Shown one piece after another: positions 12,267-44,066 of a stretch of 53,275 bases of DNA. Made by a program: the position numbers and the translations under genes. Source of the stretch: a virus; IMG/VR virus record IMGVR_UViG_3300030333_004803, positions 1-53,275 of that record; one strand, written 5' to 3'. The notes beneath the pieces were generated by a model. It did no database searches, had not been told where the DNA came from, and saw only the letters and a program-made list of their open reading frames with translations. How positions within the stretch are numbered: position 1 is the first letter of the stretch; every line of letters begins with the position of its first letter.

Positions 12267-12751
12267 TGCGAACTACTTTTGGAGAAATCATACAAGAAGT
12301 TTTACGCCATGAAGGTGGTTATGTAAATGATTCTGTTGATAAAGGCGGAGAAACAAAGTATGGTATATCAAAAAGAGCGCATAGCGATGTAGATATTAAA
12401 AACCTAACAGTTGAAGAAGCGTGTGCTATTTATAGAGAGCATTACTGGACTCCTTCAAAAGCTGAAAAACTACCAGAAGAATTAAGAGAAGCTTATTTTT
12501 TGTTTGTAGTTAATGCTGGTCAAGGAACTGCGGTAAAGGTCTTACAAAGAGCATGTAATGGTAAAAATGGTAAGAACGAAGAAATTGCAGTAGATGGTAG
12601 GATAGGAAGAATGACCATTAGAGCTTCACAAAAACTAGAAAAAGATCGTTTTATATCATATATAATATTGCATTATGCAAAAATAGTATACAGAAATTCT
12701 TCTCAAGAGCGTTTCTGGTACGGTTGGTATAGAAGGGCCTTGGGACTATAA
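12266..12751 (+). CDS. GH108 lysozyme (endolysin)
   Basis: A 161-residue protein of the glycosyl hydrolase 108 family. The catalytic motif HEGGY (E16) is followed by DKGGETKYGIS (residues 25-35), the hallmark of the family, and by a C-terminal peptidoglycan-binding type half with WYGWYRRA. It hydrolyses peptidoglycan to release progeny. No signal peptide is visible, so export through a holin is expected. It overlaps the preceding gene by one base. Confidence 0.93.
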   Translation: MRTTFGEIIQEVLRHEGGYVNDSVDKGGETKYGISKRAHSDVDIKNLTVEEACAIYREHYWTPSKAEKLPEELREAYFLFVVNAGQGTAVKVLQRACNGKNGKNEEIAVDGRIGRMTIRASQKLEKDRFISYIILHYAKIVYRNSSQERFWYGWYRRALGL

Positions 12752-12752
12752 T

Positions 12753-13532
12753 ATGAGAAAAAAAGATAAGGGTGTAGTAAAACGATTTATTGTAACTCCA
12801 GATAAGCACTTTCCCTTACACAGTCAACCTGCTATTGATTGCTTAATTAAAGCTATTCACATAGTAAAGCCTTCAGGTTATATAGATCTTGGAGATGTTG
12901 GCGAATGGGAATCTGCCTCTCACTGGCAATGGAGAAAAAAGAAACGTCCTCCATTGGAGTATCAATTACCTTATGTTGAAAAAGAAATTGAAGCCGTTAA
13001 TGCTGGTATGGATATGATAGATGAAGCATTAGACAAAGTCAATTGCAAAGAAAAACATATGACAGAAGGTAATCACGATGATTGGTTGAATAGATTTGTT
13101 GATGAGCATCCTTATCTTAAGGGTATGAGGTTTGCTAATGCAGTTAATCTTAAAGAACGTGGCTATAAATTTCATCCTATTGGCAAATTATTAAAAATAG
13201 GAAAATTAAATTTTTATCACGGACATCATTATGCTGGCATACAGCACACAAGAAATCATTTGTTAAGAATGGGTGCAAATATTATGTATGGACATCATCA
13301 TGATATACAGCAATCTTCTGTAACTCATGTAGATGGACCCAAAAGTGCTTGGTCTATAGGTTGTTTAAAAGATATGGAAGCAGGAGCTAACCCCTGGTTA
13401 AACCATAGAGGTCATAATTGGGCTCATGCTTTTGCTGTAGTAGATTTCTTTACCAATGGCAGATTTACTGTTCATGTAGTACAAATTGTAGACGGTGAAA
13501 CAGCTTTATGGGGAGAGGTTATAAAAGCATAA
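12753..13532 (+). CDS. Calcineurin-like metallophosphoesterase
   Basis: A 259-residue enzyme with all five metal-binding blocks: D17-x-H19, a LGDVGE block, EGNHDD, HGHH and GHHHD. This fold hydrolyses phosphodiesters or phosphomonoesters with two metal ions. Substrate cannot be predicted; phage relatives are linked to nucleic-acid or nucleotide processing. It sits oddly between the lysozyme and tail genes and starts one base after the lysozyme stop, suggesting late expression. Confidence 0.9.
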   Translation: MRKKDKGVVKRFIVTPDKHFPLHSQPAIDCLIKAIHIVKPSGYIDLGDVGEWESASHWQWRKKKRPPLEYQLPYVEKEIEAVNAGMDMIDEALDKVNCKEKHMTEGNHDDWLNRFVDEHPYLKGMRFANAVNLKERGYKFHPIGKLLKIGKLNFYHGHHYAGIQHTRNHLLRMGANIMYGHHHDIQQSSVTHVDGPKSAWSIGCLKDMEAGANPWLNHRGHNWAHAFAVVDFFTNGRFTVHVVQIVDGETALWGEVIKA

Positions 13533-13639: not shown

Positions 13640-13818
13640 CTGTTGAGAAACATTGCCCTCATTGCAGGGAAAAAACTGAACATGACAAAGATGGCCTTTG
13701 TATCCAATGTATTAAAAGAAATCAGTGGGTAAGTGGCGCTATGTCTTGGTTTGGAGACTGGTTAGATCCACACACCACAGGAAGTAAAGATGGCAAAAGA
13801 GATATACGAAATAACTAA
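13636..13818 (+). CDS. Zinc-ribbon small protein
   Basis: A 60-residue protein with CPHC (residues 7-10) and CIQC (22-25), a four-cysteine zinc knuckle. A helical Trp-rich tail follows. It overlaps the following large gene by 29 bases. It may bind nucleic acid or stabilise a protein contact. Function unknown. Confidence 0.6.
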   Translation: MTVEKHCPHCREKTEHDKDGLCIQCIKRNQWVSGAMSWFGDWLDPHTTGSKDGKRDIRNN

Positions 13819-16800
13819 GTTTGTCACTGGTACTGTATCCAATATTGCAGATAGAGATATACCAGATGATGCAGCTTCTTATTCTAAAAACCTAGATCCA
13901 ACTTCAGTATCGGGACAATTACAAGCTATTAAAGCAGACGTTATTGTTCAAGATGGTAGTAGTGGGGCATTAGGGAAAGGAACTAATCATGCGTTCATCA
14001 ATAACGGAGGCAATCGAGATCTTGTGTGGTATGATCCTGATAACAACCATATTAAGTATGTCACTGATTTATATGGCAGCAAAGGCGATGTTACTATTGC
14101 TACAGGGGGCAGTAGTATTACTTCAGGAGATGACGTCACGTTTGAACAAAATAATAGAGAAATACATATAGGAACTGGAAATGGATCTTCTCATAAACCT
14201 AAATGGGCTGGATATATACCTCATGGACAATTTACTGGCTCAGCCCCCTCAGGGATACAAGTAGAAGACGCTAATTTACTTAGCCCAGGAAGATTCCCTG
14301 CGATGTTTTCTGTATGTGAAGATGAAAATTATATTTACGGAGTAGAGTATCAAGGTCAATATATTTATAAATTTCAAAAATCAGACTATAGTTTACTTGA
14401 GATCAGTAAAACAAGATTTGTAAAATTACAAGTTGTTGCATTAGCGGGGGATGTAGCAAATTATGGAAAAACGTATTCTGGAAATCATTTATGGGTATAT
14501 GATTCTGGACATAGTACTTATGGTACTATATATAAAGTAGATAGGGCTACTCTATCAATTGTTCAAGAAAATCAACTTACTGCTGCAATATGTGGCGGAG
14601 TCAATTATGTGACTAGTATGGTTGAATCAACTAATATGTTATGGGCAGCTTCACATCCTACTGATGGTGGTTATATAACAGCAAATTCAGTATTTAGAGT
14701 AGCAACTCCTACATCTACTACAAGTATTACCTTTACTAATGCAAGTCCTTGGGCAGCAAGTGCTGGTACTGGAGAGAGTAGTCTTGATGGTGATTATTTT
14801 AGTAGTGATCTTAACTCAGATGCTACAGCCCCCACAACCGCTAGATTTTACACTGTTAGAAATTCATTATGCTTATCTGCTGCGAATACTGCAGAAGTAT
14901 GCTGGTTTACTAGAATAACAAATGCTACTGGAGCAGCTGTTTATATGGCTTATTATCAAACTGGTGGAGTTAATCATGCATATCCATTAGGGCAATGTGC
15001 TTGGATAATAAAAGAAAGCTATACTCAAGTAAGTCAACCAGCAGATAATAATACTGTTACTAAAGCTTATCCAGTAACATTTGAAGTAGGAGTATCAAAT
15101 TCATTAGTATCAACTGATGTTATAATGGATACTTTGCAACAAAAAGCTGCAAATGGATTTATTGCAAAATTATTTATATCGCATCATCCTACTGGTAATA
15201 CTGATAATATGAAAATTAGCCAATATCCTTTAATTACTCAACATAGTAGTTACAATGGCATATTTAGCAGTACAAGCGCAGGTCAAACAAATCGAATTGA
15301 TGCAGATCATGTGCAATACGTTCCAACTGAAGGAGCTGTAGTTCAAAGTTTACTTACTGGACAAAATACCAATGGGTCTTCTCAAGCTGTAGCTGGGTAT
15401 AAATTAAATATTTTTGGTGGATCTAGTTATGGAGCTTGGGCTATTGTTGATGGTGATTTAAGTAGTAATTCTGGATACAAATTAAGAAGTACTTTAGAAA
15501 TGTCAATCGCTACAAGTGGAACTAACACTGAATGGAATAATTCTTATACATATTTTTATGCTTGTAGTTTTGTTTACGATGGATATCAAGAAAGTCCATT
15601 GTCTTCTGCTGTTATAGATAGTTCTAATCAAACAAAAAACAGATCTATTACTTTAAAAATATTTAATCTTGCAGATTCTAGTAGTTCATTGGCTATAAGC
15701 AAAAGAATTACTCACATTAATCTTTACAGATCAGAAGCGGTAACTGCTAATGCTACTTTTCCTACTGGATTTTATAGATTGGTAAAGAGTCAAAAATTAG
15801 ATTCAAGCTTTGCTGCTAAATCAAGTGCTCAGTGGGGAAATTATAAAGAAGTTGTAATTACAGATGATAAAGTAGAAGGTGCTTCTTATGAAGCATATGC
15901 TGGTTTACCAGAAACAATTGATAGAACATTGCCTCATTATGCGTTATCAACACAGTTAAATAATGAAATGATTATCGGTAAATGTTATCATCCAGATATT
16001 GAGAATAGTGAAAACTATTTATTTAAATCCCTGCCTTACAAATATGATACTTTTGACTGGACATCAGATTTGCTTAGATTGCCTATTGTGCCTACAGCCT
16101 TAGCTTCTTTTCAAGGCAAAGTATATGCATTTAGCGAAAACGATATTTATATAATTAATACACAAGGTATGTATATAGAAGATATATTGGAAGGTATGGG
16201 GTGCTTAAATAAGCATTGTGTAAAAGTTACTGATTATGGAATGTGTTTTGCTGATATAAATAATATTTATTTGCATGATGGTAGACAAGCATCACCTATA
16301 GGTCAAACTATTTTAAACGAAAAAGCTGAACAAACAGGTTGGTTGTTTAAGAATACTTCTACGGACCCATTAGTGTTTTTTGAAGGATCTACTAAATCTT
16401 TTGTAATTTATTTTCAAAAACAAGCAGGTAATGGCTCTGCTGATCATTTAGCGTGGGCTTATAATGTTTTAAGAAGAAGATGGGATCTATGGTATGGCCC
16501 TACTGCAGGAGCAGTGGGTGGTATAGTTGGAAAAAATGGAGAAATGTTAATAAATGACGGAACTAATTTAAGACATATGAAAGGTGATAGTAATTACGCC
16601 AATTGGGAGTTTAGAACTAAAAATATAACATTAGGTGCAAGCACTCAAGAAAAAATGTTTTATAAAATAAGAACCGTAGGCGATACTGGATGTGAAATAG
16701 CTTATAGTGTAGATGGTGGAGCATATACAAGTGATGTAACTAGTACTAATTCTGTAGATATAAGCGCAGCTAATAAAAAGAAAAAAGCTTTAAAAATAAG

Positions 16801-16870
16801 ATTAAAAGGGACTGGCTCAGAAATTATTGATTCTGTTGGCGTGGTCTATAGAAGATTAAAAGTAAAATAA
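13790..16870 (+). CDS. Tail nozzle/hub-like beta-propeller protein
   Basis: A 1026-residue protein starting behind an AGGAAG site. The N-terminus has a VTNxxxxRDIP...ASYSKNLDP-type pattern (residues about 10-40) seen in podovirus tail hub or nozzle proteins. Two stretches of short beta segments with internal similarity (about 150-300 and 700-900, e.g. GKVYAFSENDIYII and GMCFADINNIYL) fit a beta-propeller, as in T7 gp12/P22 gp10-type proteins. It probably forms the distal tail tube through which DNA and ejection proteins pass. Large size and the absence of a tape measure support a short-tailed virion. Confidence 0.7.
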   Translation: MAKEIYEITKFVTGTVSNIADRDIPDDAASYSKNLDPTSVSGQLQAIKADVIVQDGSSGALGKGTNHAFINNGGNRDLVWYDPDNNHIKYVTDLYGSKGDVTIATGGSSITSGDDVTFEQNNREIHIGTGNGSSHKPKWAGYIPHGQFTGSAPSGIQVEDANLLSPGRFPAMFSVCEDENYIYGVEYQGQYIYKFQKSDYSLLEISKTRFVKLQVVALAGDVANYGKTYSGNHLWVYDSGHSTYGTIYKVDRATLSIVQENQLTAAICGGVNYVTSMVESTNMLWAASHPTDGGYITANSVFRVATPTSTTSITFTNASPWAASAGTGESSLDGDYFSSDLNSDATAPTTARFYTVRNSLCLSAANTAEVCWFTRITNATGAAVYMAYYQTGGVNHAYPLGQCAWIIKESYTQVSQPADNNTVTKAYPVTFEVGVSNSLVSTDVIMDTLQQKAANGFIAKLFISHHPTGNTDNMKISQYPLITQHSSYNGIFSSTSAGQTNRIDADHVQYVPTEGAVVQSLLTGQNTNGSSQAVAGYKLNIFGGSSYGAWAIVDGDLSSNSGYKLRSTLEMSIATSGTNTEWNNSYTYFYACSFVYDGYQESPLSSAVIDSSNQTKNRSITLKIFNLADSSSSLAISKRITHINLYRSEAVTANATFPTGFYRLVKSQKLDSSFAAKSSAQWGNYKEVVITDDKVEGASYEAYAGLPETIDRTLPHYALSTQLNNEMIIGKCYHPDIENSENYLFKSLPYKYDTFDWTSDLLRLPIVPTALASFQGKVYAFSENDIYIINTQGMYIEDILEGMGCLNKHCVKVTDYGMCFADINNIYLHDGRQASPIGQTILNEKAEQTGWLFKNTSTDPLVFFEGSTKSFVIYFQKQAGNGSADHLAWAYNVLRRRWDLWYGPTAGAVGGIVGKNGEMLINDGTNLRHMKGDSNYANWEFRTKNITLGASTQEKMFYKIRTVGDTGCEIAYSVDGGAYTSDVTSTNSVDISAANKKKKALKIRLKGTGSEIIDSVGVVYRRLKVK

Positions 16871-16880: not shown

Positions 16881-17795
16881 ATGAGTTGGTTAAGCGAATT
16901 TTTAGGTACTAACCCTATTAGACATGATTTTAATTACGATGTCTCAACTGCTGATTACAATACAAATACTGGTCTGCTTAGTTCAATAAACAATATTAAT
17001 CAAACTGGTGGTCGATTATCTAATATGGGTAATCAATTATTTACTAGAGGGCAAGGATTGCTTTCTGGTCAAGATCCTATGTTATTACAACAAAGAAATT
17101 GGCTATCTAGAGGTTTGCAAGATGTTGGAGCTCAGCAAGGTTTAGCATTAAATCGTAATTTAGCTATGAGGGGAATTGGATCTGGCGGTATTAGAAGTAT
17201 TATAGGAGCATCTAGAGATAGGGGCTTAGGTGAAGAATATCAAAAAGGACTGTTATCAATTGGAAGAATGGGGCTTGATTTTGGTACAAGATTATCTGGA
17301 TTAGGTACACAAGCAGTTGGTCAAGCAGGTGGTTTATATGGCACAGCAGGACAGTTAGGAGCTGGAATAGATTCTAGAACATTACAAGCTAATATGTTTA
17401 ACGCTGGTCAAACAAACCAAAGAAATCAATTTGCAAGCAATATGGCTTATCAACAAGCAGTTGGCAATAGAGCTCAAAAAGCTTCATTTGCTAATTCTTT
17501 AATTGGATTGGTTGGCGGATTAGCAGGTAACTATCTTGGTGGTCAGATGATGGGTAATATACTAGGTAGAACAGGCGCAGGAGCAGGTACAGGAAATGTT
17601 CCAGGTACAACGGCTTCGGCTGGTTTTAATATGCCAGGATTACCAAGCTTATTTAGCGGTTCAGGTGGTTTTACTGGAGCATATAACAGGGCTAATCAAG
17701 GAGTTCCAGGTATAGCGTATAATAATCCACCACCTATAAATATGCCTTTCTTTATGCAACAATATCCATACCCAGGGCAAGGAGGTACAGACTAA
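16881..17795 (+). CDS. Internal virion/ejection protein candidate
   Basis: A 304-residue protein rich in Gly, Gln, Asn, Leu and Ala. Residues 30-200 are repetitive amphipathic helices, residues about 205-235 form a glycine-zipper hydrophobic stretch (LIGLVGGLAGNYLGG), and the C-terminus is Pro/Gly-rich and disordered. Ejected internal proteins of podoviruses have this composition and insert into the host envelope. It is coupled to the next gene by a TAATG overlap. Assignment is by composition and position. Confidence 0.6.
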   Translation: MSWLSEFLGTNPIRHDFNYDVSTADYNTNTGLLSSINNINQTGGRLSNMGNQLFTRGQGLLSGQDPMLLQQRNWLSRGLQDVGAQQGLALNRNLAMRGIGSGGIRSIIGASRDRGLGEEYQKGLLSIGRMGLDFGTRLSGLGTQAVGQAGGLYGTAGQLGAGIDSRTLQANMFNAGQTNQRNQFASNMAYQQAVGNRAQKASFANSLIGLVGGLAGNYLGGQMMGNILGRTGAGAGTGNVPGTTASAGFNMPGLPSLFSGSGGFTGAYNRANQGVPGIAYNNPPPINMPFFMQQYPYPGQGGTD

Positions 17796-18568
17796 TGGCT
17801 TATAATTTTGGAGAAGTAATACTAGACAGTATTGACAAAGGTAAAAAAACAGCTATGGCTGCCTCAGAGTTACAAATGAGGAAAGAGCAAGCTATAAAAG
17901 ATGATCAACATAAGGCTAAAGTATTAGCTGAAGCTATTGAGAGTAGAAAACAAACTAATGAGATACAAAAAGCTGTTAATCAAATGAAAGAAGATCAATT
18001 AGTAGCTAATCTTACTGGTATGTATCAAGGTCAACCTACATGGGCTAGGCAAATTCATGAAGAAGGTAAAACGATAGATATGTCTATATTTAAACCTTGG
18101 CTTACTTCTGCACAGCAAGATAGTTTAAAAGAAGCTGGAGTAGATTTAACAAAAGTAGATTCAAGATATTCTGGTCTTTTAGGACCTATTATAGGATCTC
18201 AACTGCAAACTAAAAAAGAAGCTAGACAAGTAGAAAGCGCTTTATTGCCACCTGCACCTTGGAAAAACCCAGAAGGCACCGATAAAGATTGGGGATTAGG
18301 AATTGATCAAGGAGAAATTCGCGATGAAGCTAGAACGTACTTAGATAGAGCAAAAGCAGATGCTGCTATATGGAAATCTGTAAGAAAAAATAATCCTAAA
18401 AGCAGTGGTTATCAGGCATATATAAGAGAATTAAGAAGTTTAAAAGCAGATCTTGATAGCAAAGATTATTTTAAACATAGTGGTAGTTTTAAAAACTGGC
18501 CTGCTAATGTAGACGCTAGAAACATGAGTAAAGAAATTACTGATTTAATTTTATTCCTTGAAGGATAA
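17795..18568 (+). CDS. Helical internal virion protein candidate
   Basis: A 257-residue, mostly helical, charged protein with a likely coiled coil in residues 15-70 and no membrane segment. It is co-transcribed between the glycine-rich ejection-type protein and the giant protein. It may be the third component of the ejection complex. No family recognised. Confidence 0.55.
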   Translation: MAYNFGEVILDSIDKGKKTAMAASELQMRKEQAIKDDQHKAKVLAEAIESRKQTNEIQKAVNQMKEDQLVANLTGMYQGQPTWARQIHEEGKTIDMSIFKPWLTSAQQDSLKEAGVDLTKVDSRYSGLLGPIIGSQLQTKKEARQVESALLPPAPWKNPEGTDKDWGLGIDQGEIRDEARTYLDRAKADAAIWKSVRKNNPKSSGYQAYIRELRSLKADLDSKDYFKHSGSFKNWPANVDARNMSKEITDLILFLEG

Positions 18569-18574: not shown

Positions 18575-21500
18575 ATGCCATTAGACCCTCGTTTGTATCA
18601 AAATCGTGGAACTTTTACATCTGATCCATACGCACGACATATTCAAACATATCAAAGACAACCTTGGCTATTTTCTGAAGATCAAGTAGATGAATTAGAA
18701 GAGTATGCTAAAGCTAATGATATTGAATTTCAACGTCAAATTGACCCATCTGGTTCAGGCTTAATTGGAGTTGCTAATCAGCTAACTTCTGGAATCGTAG
18801 AAGGTTTTACTACTTTAGGCTGGGCAGATGAGCCTGAAACTACTGCTGAATCTATTGCTTATAGAGTTGGACACTTAATTGGTTTTGCTCCTGATATTAT
18901 AGCAGGTGTAGTGTCTGGTGGTGCTACAGCAGGTGCTAGTTTAGCTAAAATGGCGGGCAAAAAAGGGGTAAAAAAGGCAGCTCAGGATAGATTTAGTACT
19001 AAGTTAGCCCAAGGTATGCAAAAGGCCGTAAAAGGCGAATTTGGGATCCAAGCTGCTGCTACTCAAAGAGCAAGTGACTTTTTTGGAAGAGAATTTACAA
19101 GAGGTCCATTAGCTTTAAGATCTGTTCCTATGCGTGTAGCTGATTGGGCCACTGGAGCTGGTGGAAGAATGATGGCTGATGCTGGATGGGATGCAGCTAA
19201 ATTCTTACAAGAAGGTCATTGGGGGCGTTCTATTATAAAACAAGCAGGGCATTTAGGTATAGCTTCTGGAGTATCTGCTTGGCAAGAAGGTCCTGAAGGT
19301 GCATTAAAAGCTTCTATGCATGGTGCTGTAGCAGGTGCTGCATTTGGTGGTATAGGTAATTTCATGCAAGTGGATAAGATGTTAAAAAGTGGAATACCTT
19401 CAATGGAAGCAGAAGCTCGTGCAATAATACAAACAGTAGCTAAGGGTATGGCTGGATCTGCATTTACAGGTATACCTTCTACTATGCGTGGAGAAGATCC
19501 TGCTGCTCAAATTTATGAATATTTATTAGGATTTTTCTTTGGTGCTTCAACTCAACCAGCTTGGAAAGAAGCTGGGATGAAAGTATTTAATGAAGCTTCT
19601 CAAAGGGCAGAAACTGCATTTCAACCTCAAAAATTAGATAGTTTTGCTAAATTAAATAAATCAGCTAAAGATTTTGTATTAGAACAAACTAAAAATGCTT
19701 ATGGTAGATATTCTAAAGACGCTAATTTATCGCAAGCTGCAATAGAAATCTTAAAAAATATTACAGGTAAAGACAACCCTACTTTAAAAGACTATCAAGA
19801 GAACTTCAAAGAAGTTAATAGAGATATTGTAAAACATATAGATCAGCAATACCAAGAGGTTAAAGAACCTGCAACTGAAATTAAAAATCCCTCAGAAACA
19901 ACAATAGTTCCAGGTGAACAACTATCTATAGAGTTTGAAAAGAAACGTTATTTTCAAGTAGGGGCTGAATATAATGACAAAACTCCTTTAGCTACTAAAA
20001 ACGAAATTGTTCAGCATGTATCCGATATTATGGGACCTCATGCTACCAGAACAAGAGATATGTTTCTTAAAGAAATTAAAGAGAACCCAGAAGCTGTTGG
20101 AATGTATGTTGATGGTATGGTTCAATTTGTCGAAGGTAAGGTAACACATCATGCTGCTGTACATGAACCCATACACTGGTTTATGGGAAAAGTTTTAACT
20201 CAGCAAGAATATTCTTTTTTACAAAGACAATTTAAACAAAAAAACGAATTAGCTACAGAAGAAGCTATTGTTAATGCTGCTAGTGAGTATTATTTAGGCA
20301 AAAAAACCTTTACAGGTAAAGTTAAAGCTTTGTTCCAAAAATTTTGGAGGCAGATTAAAACATTATTAGGTAAAGATTTAACAGACGGTCAAAGCGTACA
20401 AGAATTATTTGATAGAATTGGGACAGATTACACTATAAGAAGTAAAGATAATTTAAAAGATTATATTAGTAAAGACAGAGGCAACTTAGAAAGATTAGTT
20501 GATGCAGAAGTATCAGTAAAAACAGAGCAAAATGATTATATATTGTACAATGATTATTTAGATTTCACTGGTTCAAAAAAAGCAGGGAAGCCTGAAGGTA
20601 GGCCGACTATACATTATGTGATAGATGAACTTATTCAAGTTCCTCAAAGTAGATATAACCCAAGGCAAACAACTCTTGCTAGTTTAGCTGAGTTTCATTT
20701 TCCAGAATTAAAAAATGTATCAAGTTTAGATTATTATAATCCTAAACAAATTGCTCAAATGCCCGCTCAATTAAAAGAAGCAAGGCTAACTTTAGATTTA
20801 GAATATAAATTTGTTAATAATGTCAATGATGTAAAATCTGAAAAGATTGGTTTTTCTGGTATGTACAAAAGTCTTTCTAAAAATCTAAAAAAAGCTGAAA
20901 AAATTGCAGCTAGAGATTTTGTTGATAGATTAAAAGAAAAATATAAAGATCAAAAATCAATAACAAAAGAAGAATTAGTTAAAGAATATAATGAATTTAT
21001 TGAGAAAGAATATCCTTTTAATGCTTATATTGCTTTAGGTTATGAAAATACTACTCAAAAAGGCATTTCAATTCCTTATGGAGCTGAAAATATAATTACA
21101 AATATTAGAACTGTAGAAAACCCTAAATTAATTGAAAATAAAAAAGTTATGTTTACTGGCGGAGAGCTTTATGATAAGCTTGGCCATCAATTTGAAATAT
21201 TAGATCCAAGATTTGATAGTAAAATTCCTGATATTTCTTCTAATGGATATGGTTGGTATAATTTTTTAGATATAAAACATATAGACCCTAAACTGTCTAT
21301 TTCTTTTGAATATCAATCAGATTTATTTGATAATCTAGCTAAACCTACATCTAAAGAAACAAAACCAGAATTACAACTACATCACGGGACAAGAACTTTA
21401 CAAGAATCTGCTGAAAAAGAATTTAGAATAGTAGCATCTAATAAAGCTAAACAAAACATAGAATTTGAAATGAATAGACGTGGGTTAGGTTTTGTTTTAA

Positions 21501-24500
21501 ATGAATTAGTTGAGTGGAGTGGTACTGAATTACTTTTTAAAAAAGCTTCTTTTAAACAAGATAGTTATCAAAACACCGTTGATAACTATTTAAGAAACTC
21601 AATATCAGAATTAGAAGGTATGAAATTTAGTAGATATGTAAATGAAACTGTAAGGAGTGTTTTTAGAGATTTTAATAAAAAAATAAAAAAAATAGAAGAT
21701 AAGTATCCACGTTTAAAAAATGGAGAGCTTGACCCTAGAGCTATATCTGAAAGAAATGAAGCTGTTTTTGAAATGCAAAATATTGCAGATGCAATAAATG
21801 AAATTTTTCCTCAAGCATTTAATATGAGCAAGCCTTCTGAAGCTGCAAAAAAAGCAATGAGTTATTTTGATTCATTTTCTGTTAATGGAGGTGGTCGTAG
21901 TCCGTTATCTAAAAGTGCTAGTCTTTGGCAAACAAGCCCCCTTCCCAATGAAACTACTTTTGTTAATACAGGTTTATTTAATATAAGACGAGAAAATAAT
22001 TGGAGCGACTCAGAGTACATTAGCAGACGACAGAATAGAAAAACTGGTGAAATGCCTACCCCTAAAGAAGTCTATGATAATTTAATTAACAAAGAATTAC
22101 CTAAATTATATAAAATTCTTGATTCTATTAACAATAAAGATTTTACATCTGCAAAAATTAAAAGATTAATTGATTTAATAACTAAAAATCATTTTGATTA
22201 TAAGTTTGCATTAGAAGACATGGGTTCAACTTATTTTGAATCAGCTCGTTTTTTAGATAGAAAAAGATTATTAGGTTCAGCAAAATCAGATAAATTATTT
22301 GATGGTCCTAGCCCAGGTACTAAATTTGCAGAATTATCTCCTGAACTTAGAATAGAATTTATTAATCAACAGAATATTTATTTAAATATAGTTAAAGATA
22401 TTTATCAATATTTAACAAATACATCCTATGCTCTTTTAAAACAAAAAGATAATTTTGTTGGTTTAACAGATATTCCAGAAGCTCCTTTTAATAGCGCTGG
22501 AAGAGTTGTAGGTGAGTTAAACAATAAACTTAAAAACACTGATTCTTTAATTAGAAGACAAGCGTCTATAGTTAATCAATTTAATTTTACACTTGATGCT
22601 TTAAATGTAAAAACGACAAGAGACAAGTTAGCAAACTACGTTATTGATAAATATGATCGTTATATGGATGGTTTTAGATTTCAATTACAAGATTATATTC
22701 ACGAATATATCAAAATAGGAAATGACCTACTTAATTCTCAGATAAAAGATAATCCTAAACTACATAATTATATAAAAGTTTTTCAAGAAAAAGAAGCTTT
22801 TAGGCAAAAACAAATTTACCATGCTTTAATTACTGCAAGTCAAAATGGAGATACTCGTCATATATTAACAGGTGGGCAAGGCTCATATAAAATTCAACAA
22901 AATAGTCAAGCATCTAAACTATATTTAAACCAAGGAGAAATAGACGCTTTACCTAAAATATCTTATAAAGACTGGAGAAAAAACTCATTTAAAAAAGATA
23001 TGTTACGTTCAGATAAATGGTCTCATGAAGTTCATTTTAGAATGTTTGGTAGAGGTCAAGGTTTGCACACTATGTCTGATAAAGAATTTGATGCATGGTT
23101 TACTAGTCAACGCAATATGGGTCAAAAATTAACAAATAGATGGATGGGTATTACTGGAAATATTTTAATTAGAAGAGCAAGAGATGGAAATGGTGAAATA
23201 ATTAAAGATAAATGGGATTTTACAACTACTAGAGCTAATCCTGACAAATTGGGCACTATGACATTTGACCAATTGAAAAGAATGTTAAAAGATAGCCCTA
23301 GACCAGGTCCTTTTGCAACAGATGCGCAAAAAGTATTAAAAAAATTAAAAATTCCATATACATATAAAGAAATTAAAGGAGTTGAAGGCGTTAATATCGT
23401 TGCTGAGATTCCAACTGATTTAGATGCTAGAATCCCTAGATTTTTTGTACCAGCAAAAAAAGATAAAAATTTACCTAGTTTAAGTAAAAAGAATAAAAGA
23501 AATGTATTTGCTTATATAGAAAAAGTATATAGAGAAGAAGGCCCTAAAAAGTCTACAGAAAGACTTATGGATGAATACGGAGTAGAGATTTTATCTTATA
23601 TTAGTGAATACGATTCTAGGCAAATGGGAGATGTAATTCCAAGAACAGCAGATCCTGAAATTCAATTAGCTTTATTCCCTGTCGATAAACAAAAAAATAT
23701 TGAAACAAGACTAAGCTCTCAAGATGATAGGAGTATGGAAATTATTCCTAAATTTAATGTTTTAGATCAGCTAGTTGATTATATAAAACCATTTTCTAGC
23801 AGAACTAGCGGTGAAATTAGAAGAGATTTAGATATCATTGCTGTAGCTAATGCTGGAAATAGAGAAGAATTTTTTAAACATTTATATGAATACATACCTA
23901 AAGAAGCCACAGATAGGCCAGAAAACTTTGAAAAAAGAGTTATTAAGCACTTAGACGCTTTATCCCAACATGAGCCTAGAAGAATGCTTTATTGGAGTGA
24001 AGAAAATGGCTTATTGTATCAAACTGAAATGCACCCATCTACAGAAGCATCTAAAAAATATGGTCAAAACGTTGATCAAACATTAAGACGAGTTACGAGA
24101 GAAGTGTCTGGGGTAGATCAAAATGGTCAACCTTATGAATTTTCTATTCAATTAAAGCCATTAGGTCAAAATCCAGGTTATTTTAGTGTGGCCCAGCAAA
24201 CATATATAGAACCTACAAATGCTTTAAATCCTAAATCTTGGAGAAGCTTAACTTTAGCGTTGGACCAAAATAATTCTTATGTTTTTGGCGGAAATGGAAC
24301 TACAGGTGTATTAAACACTAGAGTTTATCATAGAAAAACGAATCAAACAACTTTACAAGATTTGAAAAAAGAAATGTTTAGGGAAAAAGATTTTGCCCTT
24401 AGCTTTCAAAAAACTTATGAGTATGCAAAAGATTTATTCTTAGGGCAACAAATGCACGGTATTGATGCTAAGAAGAATCCTAAGACTGTTGCTAAATATG

Positions 24501-27500
24501 AGCAATTATTTGATAAGCAATTAATTTCTAACTTACTTTATTCTTTTGAAGAAAATGGTTCTTGGAGAACTGCCTTTATGGAATATCCCAATGTAGTTGC
24601 TTTTAACAAAAGACAACCACTTGAGCAAGGTGTTGAATATATGCTTTCTAGAGCAGATGTAAGTGACTTATTAAACTCTAGAGGAAAGTTAGAGTATGCT
24701 ATTGTAAAAGATGTTCCAGGAGAAGTAGGAGCTGACACTGATGGTGGTATTTATTTACATCCTGAATTATTTAATAGAGTTGCGGAAAGATTTAACCAGG
24801 ACCCAGAAACAGGATTTATTAAAGCTGTTGGAGTTGTAGGTAATCAAAAAATTGAAAGAAACGGCAAAGAAGTAAATTTAGGTAAAAATAGAGATAAAGC
24901 AGGATTTTTTAGAGCAACTAAAGAGATGGCTGATTTTATGGATGCACATGGTTTGCGTATTATAAAACGTGAATCAGGCACTAAAACACTTGGTGATAGG
25001 AAAACTTATAACATTGATTTTAAAAATGGAAAATACAAATTTGTAGGTAAAGGCTCTAGGAATCCTGAGTTTTATGAAATGTTGCCAGAAGAATTTAAAG
25101 TCAACGTTGGCATATATGATGACGCAAGAAAAGTATACGGTAATATGAATATGCCAAAACCAGTACTTTCCTTAATTAATTCAGAGCAATTTTCTCCTGA
25201 AGCAATGAACGCAGCAATGGATAAAATTACTGGACCAGCTATATATGGTACAGCAGAATCTAACGCTATAATGAAAAACTATATTGCAGATCCGAAAAAA
25301 TACGCAGAAGGATTAGTTACAAAATTTGGTGATACAAAAGTTGGTAAAATTAATTTAGATGATGTTAGCCATCATTTGATTATGGAAGCGTTAAGAATGC
25401 ATCCAGATAAACAAATTGCAAAAGATATATTAAGATTTATATTTAGAAAGCATAAAGAATATTCTATAGAAAATCCAGCAGATGATAAAACAATGCAGTT
25501 TAATAAAGATATTGAGACTATATCTCCAACATTAGATTTGTTAGAAAATGCTAATTTTGAACTTGCAGTATGGATGCAGCCAGATGTATTTAAATATGTA
25601 AATAAAGCTATAATGAATTACTTTATCCGAAGAGCATTTAAACCAAAATGGAAAAATAGTGGATATGCTCGTTTTATTGACAATACAGAACAATTAAAAC
25701 AAACTTATAATGTTCAAGAAGGTGAGTTTTATTTTGGGCATGCTAGACAATCTGAAAAAATAGAATTTCCATTTAATGGTCATAAAAGACCTATTACTAG
25801 AGGACAAGCTTATAAAGAATACTTAAAAGCTCAAAAGCAAGGAGCTCCAAAAGAAACATTAGAAAGTATGCTAGATCATCTGTCAGCTTTATTTACCAGA
25901 GTACCCGCCCCCGTACCTTCTGGTGTTAGATTTCTAACATTTAGAGGATTTTTAAAAGAAAAGGACGGCGCAGGATACGGAATGCTCATAAACGAAAGAG
26001 ATAAATATTTCTTTGGTGGAGCAGACAATGATGGAGATCTAGCATATTTCTTTCATAATATGCCTAAAGAAATTGTTGAAGGCTATAAATCAGCTAAAAA
26101 TGAATTAGTGAAAAAAGATGGTTCTTTAAAAGATATTAAAGATCCTAAATATTACCCATTATTTGGGATAAACGAGTCAGATCCGCTGTTTAAGGCCATG
26201 AATACCCCTGCATCGACCTTTATGCCGTCTTTAAGGATTTCTGCCGCTAGAGGGGCCTTTATGGGCCAAAATAACACAGGTCCTATGGTAAACAGTAATC
26301 AAATGTTGCAAGCTTTGTACAGTACCATTAATAATCAAGGCGGTGAAATGGTATTTAATGCCAATAAATTTAAATTAAGAATAAAATTAAAGAAACAAGC
26401 GAATGAAGCTGTTGCAGGCGATATGTTAAGAGAGTTGAATCTAAATGCTATAAGTAATGCTGTGGATGCTGCAAACTATCCTAATATGTCTAGCGCAAGG
26501 CAGATGAAAGAAAAAATATTTAATAAGATATTTGAAGTAACAAAGGTTGGAGAAAAAGGTCAGGTATTAAAATTTGGATTTAGTGATTTATATAAAACTG
26601 AATTTATGCAATATTGGAGATTAAATAATTTATTATTTGGTTGGAATTTTCAACAAAATAGACCGCATACAGTACAAGAGATTCTTTCTGGCTTAAAAGA
26701 TTATAGAAATTCTGGAATTAAATTTGACAGTCATATGTCAAAGGCAGCTTTGGAGTTTGGAGATCTTAATATGGATATTGATCCATGGTCTTTCTTGAAC
26801 AAAAAAGCATTAGCTACTGAGTTAAGAGTTGCTAACAAGTTGTTTAAAGAGGAGAACGGCAAAAGATTTATGCGACTTATTGGTCGTGAAAAATTAGATA
26901 TTTACGGTCAAACAACATTTAAAAGCAATATTCATACAGTAAATGACTTTTCAGACTTTATTGCTGCTAGATCAGTTATATATCCTTTAGGCGAAAGAAT
27001 TGAAAAAGCAATGAACGACTTAGGGTATGAACAACAAAGAGTTTATGAAATAATTGATTATATAGCAGATAAAGCTACTGCATTAAAAAATACAGGCTGG
27101 AAAGTTAGAATGGACGCTAGAGATCAAGATGTACCTCTTGCCGATGTACAAGCTAGAATAGACTCTGAAATAATTAGAGAACATGGTAAGTTGAGCGATA
27201 TGGCAAGACAATTAGGTATTGAGCCTAAGCTATTAACAACTTATTATGATGCTTATATATTGTCACCATTAAAGTTTCAAAATCCAGATAGCAAGCTTTC
27301 AGCTAAATTAAAAGAATTAGTTAAGTTAAGAGATGAATATAACAACTCTGAGCTTCCAGTTGATGAAAAATCAGTAGCTTTATTACAAAAAGAAATTACG
27401 GATCTAAATAAACAATATAATCAAACCACTAGAATGAGTATTGGGTGGTTGTCTACTAGAATACCAAGAGAAGTAAAAGCTGCTTATTTACAAGAATATT

Positions 27501-30500
27501 CAAAAGAATTTAATAAATACATAGTAGTACCATCTAATGATCCTGTTGTTAGGGTACCAGAGCCTAATGTTAAGCAATCTGCTCCAGAACCAACTATGCC
27601 TGAAGTTGCATCTAAAATACCAAAAGATGTATTAGAAAAAACTTTAGATGTAGATTTAGGAAAAATTACTCCTGAACAACAACAATCTATTGATACTTTT
27701 GTAAGAAACTTAGATCAGTTTCCACAATTTAAAGAAGCTATTAACTTAGCAGTTCCTGGGGTTACAGCTCAATTAAATCTTATTGGTGTTCCTATTGAAA
27801 ATATATCTTTCCAAGATATTAGAGTTTTAAACAGAATGTTTGACCAGTGGAAAAGAGGTATATTAGGTAAAAAGATTAAAAAAGGTGATTTTGGTAAATT
27901 CCCAATGAAAGCTATTTATAATTATTTATTCTATAGCAGAATTGACGAATTGCTAACACCGCATGATATGAAAATGTTAGATGTCCACAACACGCCAGTA
28001 TATCGTATTTCAAAACACGGCAGTGCTGGAGAGCTTTCTTTTGAAAAAACAAAAGTGCCTATGAGTACTATGGGTGCTATACAAAAAATGGCAGGCCATG
28101 CTTATAATTATGAAAATAAATTTGTTGAGTTTTGGGAAGATGAATTAGATAGAAGATTTAGTTTTATGAGTGAGTTAAAAGAAGCTCCTGAAATGATAGA
28201 AATAGCAGTAAGGCATATTACTAGAAATGGTGATGGTAGGGATTACAATGGCAGTGATAGAGGTAACGCAAAAGCTGTTTATGAAAAAATGTGGAAAGAA
28301 ATAGAACCTGAATATGAAGCATTACTAAAAAAAGGTAATGTAATGAGTCTGAAAGATGAAAAAGGTAATGTTTACAAAGCTAATGCTCAAGAAGTATTGC
28401 ATAAAATTAAAGACACTATTAGAGATTTTTATAAAGAATGGTATGAAACGTTCTTAAACAAAGGATATGATGAGTCTAAAGTGTTAAATCCTAAAACAGG
28501 TTTATTAAATGATAATTGGGTAAGAGACGAAATATTATCTCCTATGGTAAGAGATCTTCCTTTTGGTCGAATTGATTTAAAAGGAATGCCTGCTATCGCA
28601 AGAATTGAGTATGAAATGAGTTTAATAGATTTATTAGATGCTCAAGGCGTAAAAGGTGAAGCTGCTAGAAAAGCTAAAGCTGCTAAATATAGGTTAGATC
28701 ATCCTCCTCCTAGTGCCGAAGCCCCTCCTATTGGTAAAGTTCCTTTTGAGTTTTACTGGTCACAAATGGGTCATATAGATACAAAATTTGCAAAACAAGC
28801 AAATATTAAAGCTATGCAAGAAAACCTTATTGCTTATGAAAAAGCAATGAGAGAAGGAACTGCTAAACTAGCTACAGAAATGCTTGAATTTAATTATCGA
28901 AATGGTACTATAACTTTAGAGCAAGGTATTAAAGAGTCTATTAATATTACAAAACAACGTTATGAAAAGGCTTTACAAACTTCTGTAAAAGGTGATAATA
29001 GCTATAGTGAAAGTGGAGTAGAGTGGTTGCATTTTAAACCTGAAGGTGTTCAAGAAATGTCAGCTATACGAATGTTTCAAAAGCCTGGATCTGCTATGCA
29101 CAGAGGGTATTTGCCTCTTCCTGAGTTTAGAAGAGATATTGGCGTATTAAAGGATTACATGAGACAGTGGATGAAAGCTTACTTTAATAATATTATTGCT
29201 ATACGAGCTAGATATGCTATTAAAGACTTTGAACGTAGAGGACCAGTTGGTGAAGATACAGCAGTATGGAGAGACTTTTTCTTAGATGCATCAAAAAATA
29301 TTATGGGTTATCCATCTTTCTTCTCAGAAAAGATTTTTGGAATTACGCATCCTCAGGCTAGAGCTGTGCGAAAGTTTTTAGATAAGGGCAAGAGTGCTTT
29401 GTCTAAAAAACAACTTAATATGATCAAAGATTTGGTTCAAAAAATAGACGAAGAGTATATAGCTAAGTCTGGTGGACCATATATGGCTTCTTTAGCTCCT
29501 TTAAAACCTGAAGATTATAGATTCAAACTACAAGAAATGCTAAAATCTACTAACAGATTAAAAGCTTACAGGACTGGGTATTATGCATTTAGTGATCAAA
29601 AAGCTGTACAGTTCTTAGATAAGGTTTCTAAAAAATTATTTAATGGAGAAATACCTTTTTATAAAGACTTCCCAAAAGATCCTGAAGTTAGAAAAGCAGT
29701 AATGACTAGAATGGTTCATAAGTTTGGTATTATGGATGGTAAATGGAACCTTATGACACTTCTTGCTGCTCCTAAATCATTTATTGGTAACGTAATGGGT
29801 GGATCAGAAAATATTATAGGATCAGCAGGCTTAAGACATTTTAGAGGAGCAATCAATAAGCAATATTTAATTAATGAAGTATTTAAGAATGCTACGTTTG
29901 AAATGCCTGGACCAGAAGGTAAAAAAGTAAAGGTTAAGATAGATAGTATTCAAAACTTAAATCTTTGGTTAGAGACAATAGGTGTTATTGATAGTTATAT
30001 TAAATCTGAAATAGGTCTTGATTCTACGTTTAAACCAGATCGTAATAAAAGATTTGCAGTTGCTGCAGGTAGAAAAGTTGCTGCTTTATTCCATAAAAAC
30101 AAGTTAGATGACAAAACTCTTAGATTAACATTAAGAGAAACTGCTAGAGAATACGGTGTTAGTGATGCAATAGTAAATAAAGCTGCTGGATTTATGAGAA
30201 AATCAGAGCTTATTAATAGAAGGAATGCATTCTTGGCTCATTATTTAAACGCTAGGGAAGTATTTTCACCAGTAACTGATATGTTACCATGGGACAGTGA
30301 AGCACTAGTTAGGTTTGGTAAAAAAGGCTTAGAAGCTACTCAGTTTTTATATCACTCAGCTTTTAGAACTAATTATTCTAATACTGCTTTAGGAAAAGTT
30401 ATGACAAGGTTTCAACCATTTGCTTGGAACTCTGTAAAATACAGGAGACATGTTTATCAAAATGCAAAACTTTATGGCTTTAAGCCAGGAACAAGAGCCT

Positions 30501-30961
30501 TTGATAGGTACCAAAGACAAGTTACTACTGATATGTTTGCTATGGCTTTGGCTGCTATATTTGCAGGTTCTATATTTGAATATACCCTCGCACCACCAAT
30601 GGCATGGATGCAAGACACAGCACAATGGTTGTTTGGAGATGAAAAAGAAAGAGAAAGAGCATTTTTTACTTCCTGGCCCACAACAGCGCTCGCCCCGTTA
30701 CAACCAATCACTCCTCCTATAGCTAGATACCCATTAAACGTTTTATCTACTATAATTAATGGAGATATGGAAAAATTTGGAAGATATTATGCATGGACAT
30801 GGTTTCCATTTGGCAGGGTTGCACGAGATCTTTCTAGAAGTATTCCAAACCCTGCGATGAGCGTAGACTTTATGACTGGATTTCCTTTACATGGAGTTCA
30901 TAGAAAAGTAAGAAAATATATTGAAAATAGACAAGAACAAGAATTAGCACTGGAGATATAA
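18575..30961 (+). CDS. Giant polyvalent virion protein with metallopeptidase and two-barrel RNA polymerase
   Basis: A 4128-residue single ORF. Residues about 85-130 and 215-265 are Gly/Ala-rich hydrophobic stretches. H530-E-P-I-H534 with E562/E563 is a zincin metallopeptidase site, followed by a basic FQKFWRQIKTLLG helix. RNA-polymerase signatures follow: D2056-G-G-I-Y with K2083 and K2137 (first barrel), R2442-V-P...SGVRFL and D2484-N-D-G-D2488 (second barrel, metal-binding loop), then NNTGPMVNSN (2566-2575). The order and spacing match QDE-1/RDR and crAss-like polymerases. The C-terminal third is helical, with a hydrophobic segment near residue 3995, as in large polyvalent proteins. Seen: motifs. 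Inferred: packaged, ejected, and transcribing early genes. The start follows AAGGA by about 10 bases. Confidence 0.85.
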   Translation: MPLDPRLYQNRGTFTSDPYARHIQTYQRQPWLFSEDQVDELEEYAKANDIEFQRQIDPSGSGLIGVANQLTSGIVEGFTTLGWADEPETTAESIAYRVGHLIGFAPDIIAGVVSGGATAGASLAKMAGKKGVKKAAQDRFSTKLAQGMQKAVKGEFGIQAAATQRASDFFGREFTRGPLALRSVPMRVADWATGAGGRMMADAGWDAAKFLQEGHWGRSIIKQAGHLGIASGVSAWQEGPEGALKASMHGAVAGAAFGGIGNFMQVDKMLKSGIPSMEAEARAIIQTVAKGMAGSAFTGIPSTMRGEDPAAQIYEYLLGFFFGASTQPAWKEAGMKVFNEASQRAETAFQPQKLDSFAKLNKSAKDFVLEQTKNAYGRYSKDANLSQAAIEILKNITGKDNPTLKDYQENFKEVNRDIVKHIDQQYQEVKEPATEIKNPSETTIVPGEQLSIEFEKKRYFQVGAEYNDKTPLATKNEIVQHVSDIMGPHATRTRDMFLKEIKENPEAVGMYVDGMVQFVEGKVTHHAAVHEPIHWFMGKVLTQQEYSFLQRQFKQKNELATEEAIVNAASEYYLGKKTFTGKVKALFQKFWRQIKTLLGKDLTDGQSVQELFDRIGTDYTIRSKDNLKDYISKDRGNLERLVDAEVSVKTEQNDYILYNDYLDFTGSKKAGKPEGRPTIHYVIDELIQVPQSRYNPRQTTLASLAEFHFPELKNVSSLDYYNPKQIAQMPAQLKEARLTLDLEYKFVNNVNDVKSEKIGFSGMYKSLSKNLKKAEKIAARDFVDRLKEKYKDQKSITKEELVKEYNEFIEKEYPFNAYIALGYENTTQKGISIPYGAENIITNIRTVENPKLIENKKVMFTGGELYDKLGHQFEILDPRFDSKIPDISSNGYGWYNFLDIKHIDPKLSISFEYQSDLFDNLAKPTSKETKPELQLHHGTRTLQESAEKEFRIVASNKAKQNIEFEMNRRGLGFVLNELVEWSGTELLFKKASFKQDSYQNTVDNYLRNSISELEGMKFSRYVNETVRSVFRDFNKKIKKIEDKYPRLKNGELDPRAISERNEAVFEMQNIADAINEIFPQAFNMSKPSEAAKKAMSYFDSFSVNGGGRSPLSKSASLWQTSPLPNETTFVNTGLFNIRRENNWSDSEYISRRQNRKTGEMPTPKEVYDNLINKELPKLYKILDSINNKDFTSAKIKRLIDLITKNHFDYKFALEDMGSTYFESARFLDRKRLLGSAKSDKLFDGPSPGTKFAELSPELRIEFINQQNIYLNIVKDIYQYLTNTSYALLKQKDNFVGLTDIPEAPFNSAGRVVGELNNKLKNTDSLIRRQASIVNQFNFTLDALNVKTTRDKLANYVIDKYDRYMDGFRFQLQDYIHEYIKIGNDLLNSQIKDNPKLHNYIKVFQEKEAFRQKQIYHALITASQNGDTRHILTGGQGSYKIQQNSQASKLYLNQGEIDALPKISYKDWRKNSFKKDMLRSDKWSHEVHFRMFGRGQGLHTMSDKEFDAWFTSQRNMGQKLTNRWMGITGNILIRRARDGNGEIIKDKWDFTTTRANPDKLGTMTFDQLKRMLKDSPRPGPFATDAQKVLKKLKIPYTYKEIKGVEGVNIVAEIPTDLDARIPRFFVPAKKDKNLPSLSKKNKRNVFAYIEKVYREEGPKKSTERLMDEYGVEILSYISEYDSRQMGDVIPRTADPEIQLALFPVDKQKNIETRLSSQDDRSMEIIPKFNVLDQLVDYIKPFSSRTSGEIRRDLDIIAVANAGNREEFFKHLYEYIPKEATDRPENFEKRVIKHLDALSQHEPRRMLYWSEENGLLYQTEMHPSTEASKKYGQNVDQTLRRVTREVSGVDQNGQPYEFSIQLKPLGQNPGYFSVAQQTYIEPTNALNPKSWRSLTLALDQNNSYVFGGNGTTGVLNTRVYHRKTNQTTLQDLKKEMFREKDFALSFQKTYEYAKDLFLGQQMHGIDAKKNPKTVAKYEQLFDKQLISNLLYSFEENGSWRTAFMEYPNVVAFNKRQPLEQGVEYMLSRADVSDLLNSRGKLEYAIVKDVPGEVGADTDGGIYLHPELFNRVAERFNQDPETGFIKAVGVVGNQKIERNGKEVNLGKNRDKAGFFRATKEMADFMDAHGLRIIKRESGTKTLGDRKTYNIDFKNGKYKFVGKGSRNPEFYEMLPEEFKVNVGIYDDARKVYGNMNMPKPVLSLINSEQFSPEAMNAAMDKITGPAIYGTAESNAIMKNYIADPKKYAEGLVTKFGDTKVGKINLDDVSHHLIMEALRMHPDKQIAKDILRFIFRKHKEYSIENPADDKTMQFNKDIETISPTLDLLENANFELAVWMQPDVFKYVNKAIMNYFIRRAFKPKWKNSGYARFIDNTEQLKQTYNVQEGEFYFGHARQSEKIEFPFNGHKRPITRGQAYKEYLKAQKQGAPKETLESMLDHLSALFTRVPAPVPSGVRFLTFRGFLKEKDGAGYGMLINERDKYFFGGADNDGDLAYFFHNMPKEIVEGYKSAKNELVKKDGSLKDIKDPKYYPLFGINESDPLFKAMNTPASTFMPSLRISAARGAFMGQNNTGPMVNSNQMLQALYSTINNQGGEMVFNANKFKLRIKLKKQANEAVAGDMLRELNLNAISNAVDAANYPNMSSARQMKEKIFNKIFEVTKVGEKGQVLKFGFSDLYKTEFMQYWRLNNLLFGWNFQQNRPHTVQEILSGLKDYRNSGIKFDSHMSKAALEFGDLNMDIDPWSFLNKKALATELRVANKLFKEENGKRFMRLIGREKLDIYGQTTFKSNIHTVNDFSDFIAARSVIYPLGERIEKAMNDLGYEQQRVYEIIDYIADKATALKNTGWKVRMDARDQDVPLADVQARIDSEIIREHGKLSDMARQLGIEPKLLTTYYDAYILSPLKFQNPDSKLSAKLKELVKLRDEYNNSELPVDEKSVALLQKEITDLNKQYNQTTRMSIGWLSTRIPREVKAAYLQEYSKEFNKYIVVPSNDPVVRVPEPNVKQSAPEPTMPEVASKIPKDVLEKTLDVDLGKITPEQQQSIDTFVRNLDQFPQFKEAINLAVPGVTAQLNLIGVPIENISFQDIRVLNRMFDQWKRGILGKKIKKGDFGKFPMKAIYNYLFYSRIDELLTPHDMKMLDVHNTPVYRISKHGSAGELSFEKTKVPMSTMGAIQKMAGHAYNYENKFVEFWEDELDRRFSFMSELKEAPEMIEIAVRHITRNGDGRDYNGSDRGNAKAVYEKMWKEIEPEYEALLKKGNVMSLKDEKGNVYKANAQEVLHKIKDTIRDFYKEWYETFLNKGYDESKVLNPKTGLLNDNWVRDEILSPMVRDLPFGRIDLKGMPAIARIEYEMSLIDLLDAQGVKGEAARKAKAAKYRLDHPPPSAEAPPIGKVPFEFYWSQMGHIDTKFAKQANIKAMQENLIAYEKAMREGTAKLATEMLEFNYRNGTITLEQGIKESINITKQRYEKALQTSVKGDNSYSESGVEWLHFKPEGVQEMSAIRMFQKPGSAMHRGYLPLPEFRRDIGVLKDYMRQWMKAYFNNIIAIRARYAIKDFERRGPVGEDTAVWRDFFLDASKNIMGYPSFFSEKIFGITHPQARAVRKFLDKGKSALSKKQLNMIKDLVQKIDEEYIAKSGGPYMASLAPLKPEDYRFKLQEMLKSTNRLKAYRTGYYAFSDQKAVQFLDKVSKKLFNGEIPFYKDFPKDPEVRKAVMTRMVHKFGIMDGKWNLMTLLAAPKSFIGNVMGGSENIIGSAGLRHFRGAINKQYLINEVFKNATFEMPGPEGKKVKVKIDSIQNLNLWLETIGVIDSYIKSEIGLDSTFKPDRNKRFAVAAGRKVAALFHKNKLDDKTLRLTLRETAREYGVSDAIVNKAAGFMRKSELINRRNAFLAHYLNAREVFSPVTDMLPWDSEALVRFGKKGLEATQFLYHSAFRTNYSNTALGKVMTRFQPFAWNSVKYRRHVYQNAKLYGFKPGTRAFDRYQRQVTTDMFAMALAAIFAGSIFEYTLAPPMAWMQDTAQWLFGDEKERERAFFTSWPTTALAPLQPITPPIARYPLNVLSTIINGDMEKFGRYYAWTWFPFGRVARDLSRSIPNPAMSVDFMTGFPLHGVHRKVRKYIENRQEQELALEI

Positions 30962-31950
30962 TGAATCCTCAACAAATGCTTCAAATGATGTTAGATAGAT
31001 TTGCACCAACAGATAATACTGATGCTATGCCTCTCGAAGGGGATAAAAAGCTTCTAATGGACTTAGCTAAAAAAAATAAACTAAAATATAGAATATGGAA
31101 TGCTATTACCCCTAATACTGAAAAATCTTACACAGATCTTGTAAAAAGTATAGAAACTGGTCAATTGCAAATCAATAGAGTTCCAGATGCTATGTGGGAA
31201 CAATATAAACAAACGGCTTTAAACCCCGAAGCTTATCAAGGGACAGATGTAAAAAATGTTGCTGGTTGGATGTCTGGAGATAAAAGATGGATTAATATTC
31301 CTGAAAGCGCTTCACCTGAAACCATTGACCATGAATTATTACATTATTTTGGAAGTCATAGACCTGGCGAAGAAGGCGCTCCTGATAGAATAAATCCTTA
31401 TATACAAGCAGATATGGATCTTGGAGGATGGCTACCTTCTTTACATCCCAATGCTGCAAGACCAATGTTACCTGGAGATAATCTTTTATCAAGATGGTGG
31501 AATAATAATATAGCATCTAATGCAATGGAAACCGATAGAGAAATGGGATATCATCCATGGGTTGGTCAAAGCGCATATAATAGGTTTACTGGACAATCAG
31601 GTGGCGGACATGTACACGACCATGGTTTTACACCTCCTCCAACGCCTGAAGCTCCAACTCCAGAACCAGATCCCAAACCAGTTCCAGAAGCCCCTAAAGC
31701 AAAAAGTTTTGGATCTTCGTTTAAAGAAGCAAGAAAGGCTGGTTTAAAAGAGTTTGAATGGAAAGGTAAAATGTATCATACTAAAACAAAGGAAGAAGTT
31801 GAACTTGCTAGAAAGATTCAAAAAGCTCAAACTGCTACTGTGCCACAACCATCTCGAGCTACACTTCCTGCTTTTGATTATGAATCTGCAATAGATTATG
31901 TTACTAAAATACAAGATAAACCTACATATAATTACAAAGTATGGTTCTAA
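30961..31950 (+). CDS. HELLH metallopeptidase-like virion protein
   Basis: A 329-residue protein overlapping the giant gene by one base (TAATG), so it is coupled to it. H124-E-L-L-H128 inside DHELLHYFGSH is a zinc metallopeptidase site. A Pro-rich linker (about residues 224-245) leads to a module FKEARKAGLKEFEWKGKMY (about 254-272), a short C-terminal module that recurs in phage virion proteins. Possible roles are maturation of the giant protein or action on the host envelope during entry; neither is shown. It is the last gene of the late unit. Confidence 0.75.
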   Translation: MNPQQMLQMMLDRFAPTDNTDAMPLEGDKKLLMDLAKKNKLKYRIWNAITPNTEKSYTDLVKSIETGQLQINRVPDAMWEQYKQTALNPEAYQGTDVKNVAGWMSGDKRWINIPESASPETIDHELLHYFGSHRPGEEGAPDRINPYIQADMDLGGWLPSLHPNAARPMLPGDNLLSRWWNNNIASNAMETDREMGYHPWVGQSAYNRFTGQSGGGHVHDHGFTPPPTPEAPTPEPDPKPVPEAPKAKSFGSSFKEARKAGLKEFEWKGKMYHTKTKEEVELARKIQKAQTATVPQPSRATLPAFDYESAIDYVTKIQDKPTYNYKVWF

Positions 31951-40854: not shown

Positions 40855-40856
40855 TG

Positions 40857-44063: not shown

Positions 44064-44066
44064 TAG

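Follow-up and report, generated by a model that had tools for sequence, protein, structure and literature searches.

The giant open reading frame of the IMG/VR virus record IMGVR_UViG_3300030333_004803 probably codes for a DNA-dependent RNA polymerase with two barrels in a single chain, of the crAss-like/QDE-1 type, that is made late, packaged, ejected and used to transcribe early genes. The stretch of DNA analyzed, referred to here as the window, is the whole record of 53,275 bases. The open reading frame (18575-30961, + strand) begins with ATG, has no internal stop and is intact, and encodes the chain of 4128 amino acids that the original prediction had described, a polymerase-bearing, presumed ejection protein. 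The prediction's central claim, that this protein of the virion region contains a two-barrel RNA polymerase, was supported by residue invariance, a fold match and a profile match. Catalysis, packaging in the virion, ejection and transcription of early genes by the giant protein are all inferred.

The ends of the window overlap (bases 1-139 and 53093-53231, 95.7% identity over 139 nt) and an open reading frame continues in frame across the join; therefore, the genome is probably complete (~53.1 kb) and either terminally redundant or circular. The near-identical ends span positions 1-180 and 53093-53272, and the database lists the genome as linear. Shine-Dalgarno signals were detected for 30 of the 44 window genes (68%) compared to 9% of random internal sites, in agreement with an earlier description of the genome as rich in such signals. 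The giant gene is on the late strand, after the lysis gene and before a convergent early block on the minus strand (~32.6-44.7 kb), and the genome encodes its own primase/helicase. Upstream of the giant gene, on the + strand, are genes for a 1026-aa protein (13790-16870), relatives of which precede the giant gene in 22 loci, a 304-aa protein of the same cassette (16881-17795) and, directly upstream, a 257-aa protein (17795-18568). A gene for a 329-aa protein (30961-31950, +) follows directly downstream. The early block includes a single tRNA-Met (CAT) gene (44066-44138, -) and a MoxR/CobS-like AAA ATPase beside a VWA (CobT-like) protein (38401-41888, -).

No sequence-only search linked the giant protein to any known polymerase. 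Searches of Pfam, PHROGs and the PDB (phmmer/hmmsearch) gave no informative match, tblastn against 50,697 phage records gave no useful match, and a direct scan of IMG/VR viral contigs with the window segment found nothing. Two PDB profile matches at E 0.14-0.42, one to a Mediator subunit and the other to ATP synthase subunit b, were regarded as noise. Because plain searches with the giant protein failed, the terminase large subunit (46551-48077, +; PHROG match to phrog_38) was used as a handle for finding relatives and led to 58 related loci in IMG/VR. The polymerase segment was searched in 23 of the terminase-related records, six of which contained open-frame homologs with aligned stretches that were 26-41% identical. 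A scan seeded with the alignment of these homologs reported 215 IMG/VR stretches encoding relatives, 80 of which were fetched; homologs of the giant protein were present in the 80 fetched loci. Complete homologs among them were 2876-3539 amino acids in length, the window protein being the longest, and the fetched relatives were up to 55 kb.

All 47 complete homologs retained the same plan by HMM analysis: an N-terminal domain, a variable stretch, the polymerase and a C-terminal domain. The conserved N-terminal domain comprises residues 14-398 (18614-19768, +). The variable stretch (residues 401-2030; 19775-24664, +) is far longer in the window protein than in its relatives by homolog comparison, and the polymerase starts at residue 2050 compared to residues 782-1292 in relatives. 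Within the variable stretch is HEPIH, an HExxH zincin-like motif (residues 530-534; 20162-20176, +) recognized by motif only, which relatives do not share in the alignment; two of them (L068 and L159) have unaligned HExxH motifs elsewhere. The conserved C-terminal domain (residues 3640-4128; 29492-30958, +) is helical with a hydrophobic segment near residues 3983-4006, as judged in part from a low-confidence model, and is the best conserved part of the giant protein (mean column identity of 43%). Its model was poor (pLDDT 65) and could not be used for structure searches. Neither terminal domain had identified relatives outside of the giant-protein family. One member of a seven-sequence alignment (L075, 12493-15021, - strand, record G017) matched cpYpsA (SLOG, E 1e-11), and a long insertion between its two barrel motifs is the likely place of this match.

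The original prediction expected a structural model to contain two double-psi barrels, and the model's best PDB matches were phi14:2 gp66, QDE-1 and RDR2. Residues 1980-3100 were modeled by AlphaFold2 with a 57-row alignment as input (pLDDT 80.1, pTM 0.75). Foldseek against the PDB returned 6VR4, the phi14:2 virion RNA polymerase, as the sole match below 0.001 (E 9.9e-6), and the rows after it were large subunits of cellular RNA polymerases. VIA-align placed QDE-1 first (Z 14.5 over 551 residues) and RDR2 second (Z 13.9), with plant Pol IV at Z 10.8 and P74-26 gp62 and P23-45 gp64 at Z 10.3-10.6, the value for P74-26 gp62 being 10.6. Among the viral models in BFVD, unnamed proteins were on top, and crAss-like proteins and the structural protein of phi14:2 came next. 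The two-barrel fold recognized by the model and structure search (model positions 70-998, residues 2049-2977; 24719-27505, +) aligned to QDE-1 703-1338; extending over residues 2049-2977, the alignment thus reaches beyond the two barrels. The matches to 6VR4, QDE-1 and RDR2 span both barrel motifs, as expected of a protein with two double-psi barrels, and both barrels are in one chain with the Lys barrel first. Model coordinates were not inspected, and the spatial convergence of the Asp and Lys residues is implied only by the fold match of a predicted structure. The polymerase of N4 is T7-like; the structure matches of the giant protein model were two-barrel enzymes, and the T7-like fold was absent among the matches listed.

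By analogy with phi14:2 gp66 and N4 gp50, from which packaging, ejection and early transcription are inferred, the giant protein would be produced at the time of late gene expression and enter the capsid, to be ejected either before the DNA or together with it. The N- and C-terminal domains would probably help to package the protein and to cross the envelope or anchor in it, and the polymerase may then transcribe the minus-strand early block before any phage protein exists. This mode of action would be much like those of phi14:2 gp66 and of N4 gp50, the latter being folded differently. Phi14:2 gp66 is a virion component that is translocated with the DNA and transcribes early genes (summarised in PMC7886860). 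The intergenic DNA of the window yielded no recurring motif of an early promoter. The same fold class also includes phage enzymes that are not in virions, P74-26 gp62 and P23-45 gp64 being among the structures matched above, and the giant protein could be a two-barrel polymerase that is made late and used within the cell for middle or late genes, like P23-45 gp64 or YonO. We consider this unlikely, though it cannot be set aside: in every complete homolog the polymerase is flanked, within the same chain, by the conserved N- and C-terminal domains, the gene is in the late structural cassette, the PDB entry that Foldseek matched best is a virion protein, and a late-made enzyme could hardly serve early genes unless it were packaged.

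Each motif residue named in the original prediction was found at its predicted position. The catalytic DxDxD motif, DNDGD, occupies residues 2484-2488 (26024-26038, +) in the context GGADNDGDLAYFF. RVP...SGVRFL begins at R2442, 42 residues upstream of DNDGD, and its RVP (R2442, P2444; 25898-25906, +) opens the Asp barrel motif R.P...SG.R; both RVP and DNDGD were assigned by alignment and hhalign. The NNTGPMVNSN block is around residues 2566-2575 (26270-26299, +). Farther upstream, DTDGGIYLHPEL holds D2056-G2057 of the DGG block (24740-24745, +), 428 residues from DNDGD, and K2083 of the Lys barrel (24821-24823, +) and K2137 within SGTK (24983-24985, +) are present. Conservation was evaluated with an alignment of 57 proteins that were 19-24% identical to the window protein (~1058 match columns, mean column identity of 16%). 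Only 19 of the ~1058 match columns were invariant and 98% of the columns varied. The invariant columns include, in window numbering, D2056, G2057, K2083, K2108, K2137, G2140, R2442, P2444, G2450, G2458, G2481, G2482, D2484, D2486, D2488, G2569 and D2631. The residues between the Asp residues of DxDxD vary (DNDGD, DLDGD, DLDSD, DLDID, and DNDID) while the three Asp residues are constant, as is typical of a catalytic triad. Thus, features of the superfamily, namely a DxDxD metal-binding triad and a conserved Lys in the first upstream barrel (K2083, K2108, and K2137), were invariant among the 57 homologs, and the argument that five motif blocks in the right order exceed chance held, all key residues being invariant. 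This invariance also bears on the possibility that the giant protein is a former polymerase that no longer catalyzes and whose fold persists only as a scaffold in the ejection machinery. Bulk is a requirement of giant ejection proteins, and the homologs are extremely diverged in sequence, as such a scaffold might be, but the constancy of the catalytic Asp and Lys residues in a protein where nearly every other column varies makes the loss of catalysis improbable.

A direct comparison with known phage enzymes used a profile of 11 polymerases from phi14:2, crAss-like phages, Dulem virus 41 and Flavobacterium phage Fpv1. By hhalign, the 57-sequence profile matched the crAss-like polymerases with a probability of 91.8% (E 7e-7); the DxDxD motifs of the two profiles were paired, and K2137 was aligned with a Lys that is invariant among the crAss-like polymerases. 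Three control comparisons between unrelated profiles gave 0.1-0.4%. The DNA-dependent reading has one further competitor, since the highest VIA Z-scores belonged to QDE-1 and RDR2 and the giant protein might, like these enzymes, copy RNA templates or serve as a primase. There is little room for this proposal, given that QDE-1 copies DNA too (PMC2950127), the phage relatives are DNA-dependent, and the window is a DNA genome with its own primase/helicase. That the motifs match merely by chance and the giant protein is an unrelated structural protein, with which the lack of a Pfam, PHROG or PDB sequence match would be consistent, can effectively be discounted, as it is contradicted by the motif invariance, the fold match and the profile-profile match with its controls.

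The window meets neither the head-gene nor the genome-size criterion (~90-100 kb) for Crassvirales. Its terminase, portal and capsid correspond to phrog_38, phrog_156 and phrog_1328 compared to phrog_6681, phrog_6547 and phrog_11589 in phi14:2, blastp detected no similarity between the window and phi14:2 terminases, portals and capsids, and its genome is ~53.1 kb. Two of the records related by terminase (G016 and G014) encode homologs of the window terminase, portal, capsid and 1026-aa protein; the largest open reading frames in these records encode 1361-aa and 1404-aa proteins, and no match to the N-terminal, polymerase or C-terminal profiles was found in either. The records may be fragments, and the absence of the polymerase is suggestive rather than proven. 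Because there are relatives that have homologous head genes but apparently lack the polymerase, the polymerase module seems to have been gained or lost.

The polymerase type, proteins of such size and fusion in virion proteins are already known. What is new, according to the databases and literature searched, is a lineage with hundreds of diverged members, genomes of ~45-55 kb and head genes that are not of the crAss-like type. We lean somewhat toward the interpretation that this lineage is widespread, with the crAss-like/QDE-1-type polymerase at the core of its main ejection protein, that the entire polymerase-ejection module was acquired or lost in one piece between phage lineages with shared head genes, and that host-independent early transcription is hence a mobile virion trait. 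A similar protein is encoded in over 200 related sequences from uncultured phages and, therefore, such a start of infection seems to be common beyond the phage groups known for it. Two-barrel virion polymerases tie phage biology to the origins of cellular transcription and to eukaryotic RNA-silencing polymerases, and the present work adds a large, very diverged family that was missed by standard annotation, with half the crAss-like genome size and a different head-gene lineage. Whether these phages begin infection without host RNA polymerase becomes testable, with lineages that have and lack the polymerase module now at hand for comparison.

The host could not be assigned from Shine-Dalgarno use, as the fraction of genes with these signals ranged from 0 to 0.83 across family members. 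A relative of 50.6 kb had essentially the same sequence as one end of a 142-kb contig; this contig is assigned to a Bacteroidetes MAG, and its other part encodes TonB/CarbopepD_reg and aconitase genes. A tRNA-Ser gene ~270 bp from the phage-Bacteroidetes junction (L172, 11715-12073; JAHISV010000010.1, about 91.7-92.1 kb) is a possible integration site. A tyrosine-integrase regex found none in this relative and no att repeat was shown, so the host-joined relative may be a prophage or a chimera. In addition, a 264-aa polymerase fragment with GGADLDIDS is present in a Rhodothermales chromosome (L168, 9935-10726; OX638295.1), with no other matching phage genes nearby. The joined relative and the Rhodothermales fragment therefore leave unproven the contrast with Bacteroidota hosts that the original prediction had drawn.

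Comparison with known systems places the giant protein among several partial counterparts. QDE-1 and RDR2, the best structural matches by Z-score over 485-551 residues, are cellular, RNA- or DNA-templated enzymes without fusion to ejection domains and are only ~10-12% identical to the window protein. The N4/Schitoviridae gp50 protein, a three-part ejection protein of ~3500 residues from a short-tailed phage, with the polymerase in the middle (PMC12633501), is an analogue in the way it works, and no structural relation is claimed. CRP-810-type phages (PMC11288001) share major capsid and endolysin homologs with the window, and both the Roseobacter phage CRP-810 and the window genomes contain a CobS/CobT-like pair. 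The CRP-810 internal protein is 2016 aa in length, lacks DxDxD and does not match the N-terminal, polymerase or C-terminal profiles. A hidden polymerase homolog was looked for in CRP-810 and HTVC027P and none was found.

The P23-45 tape measure protein (gp96; 5,002 residues) carries a two-barrel virion polymerase (PMC10770324), so known phage members of this class are not all crAss-like as had been supposed. Metallopeptidase domains are reported in the same protein, and relatives with and without the polymerase are known around P23-45 (PMC10770324). Both gp96 and the window protein, whose virion location is inferred, contain the polymerase within a giant protein with accessory domains. The polymerase is at the N-terminus of the tape measure protein but is central in the window protein, and the P23-45 polymerase has no clamp, whereas the window alignment reaches through the C-terminal part of QDE-1. 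A fused chain of 4128 residues, once thought to be unusual, is not unprecedented, as crAss-like phages cr50_1, cr1_1 and Carjivirus and Flavobacterium phage Fpv1 have coding sequences of about 4070-4774 aa.

The phi14:2 gp66 (6VR4) and other crAss-like polymerases are, like the window protein, single-chain two-barrel enzymes in which a Lys barrel is followed by an R.P...G.DxDxD barrel, and the phi14:2 polymerase is annotated as a virion structural protein by mass spectrometry. The window protein has no BLAST-level similarity to crAss-like polymerases, and its genome is ~53 kb compared to ~100 kb. The lysis gene adjoins the phrog_221 metallophosphoesterase gene in both phi14:2 (L194, 8230-10359) and the window (12266-13532). 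The polymerase gene is in the late structural block of both phages. They share the order of lysis gene, phrog_221 metallophosphoesterase, virion proteins and polymerase, and the lysis-metallophosphoesterase order is shared despite head genes without detectable similarity.
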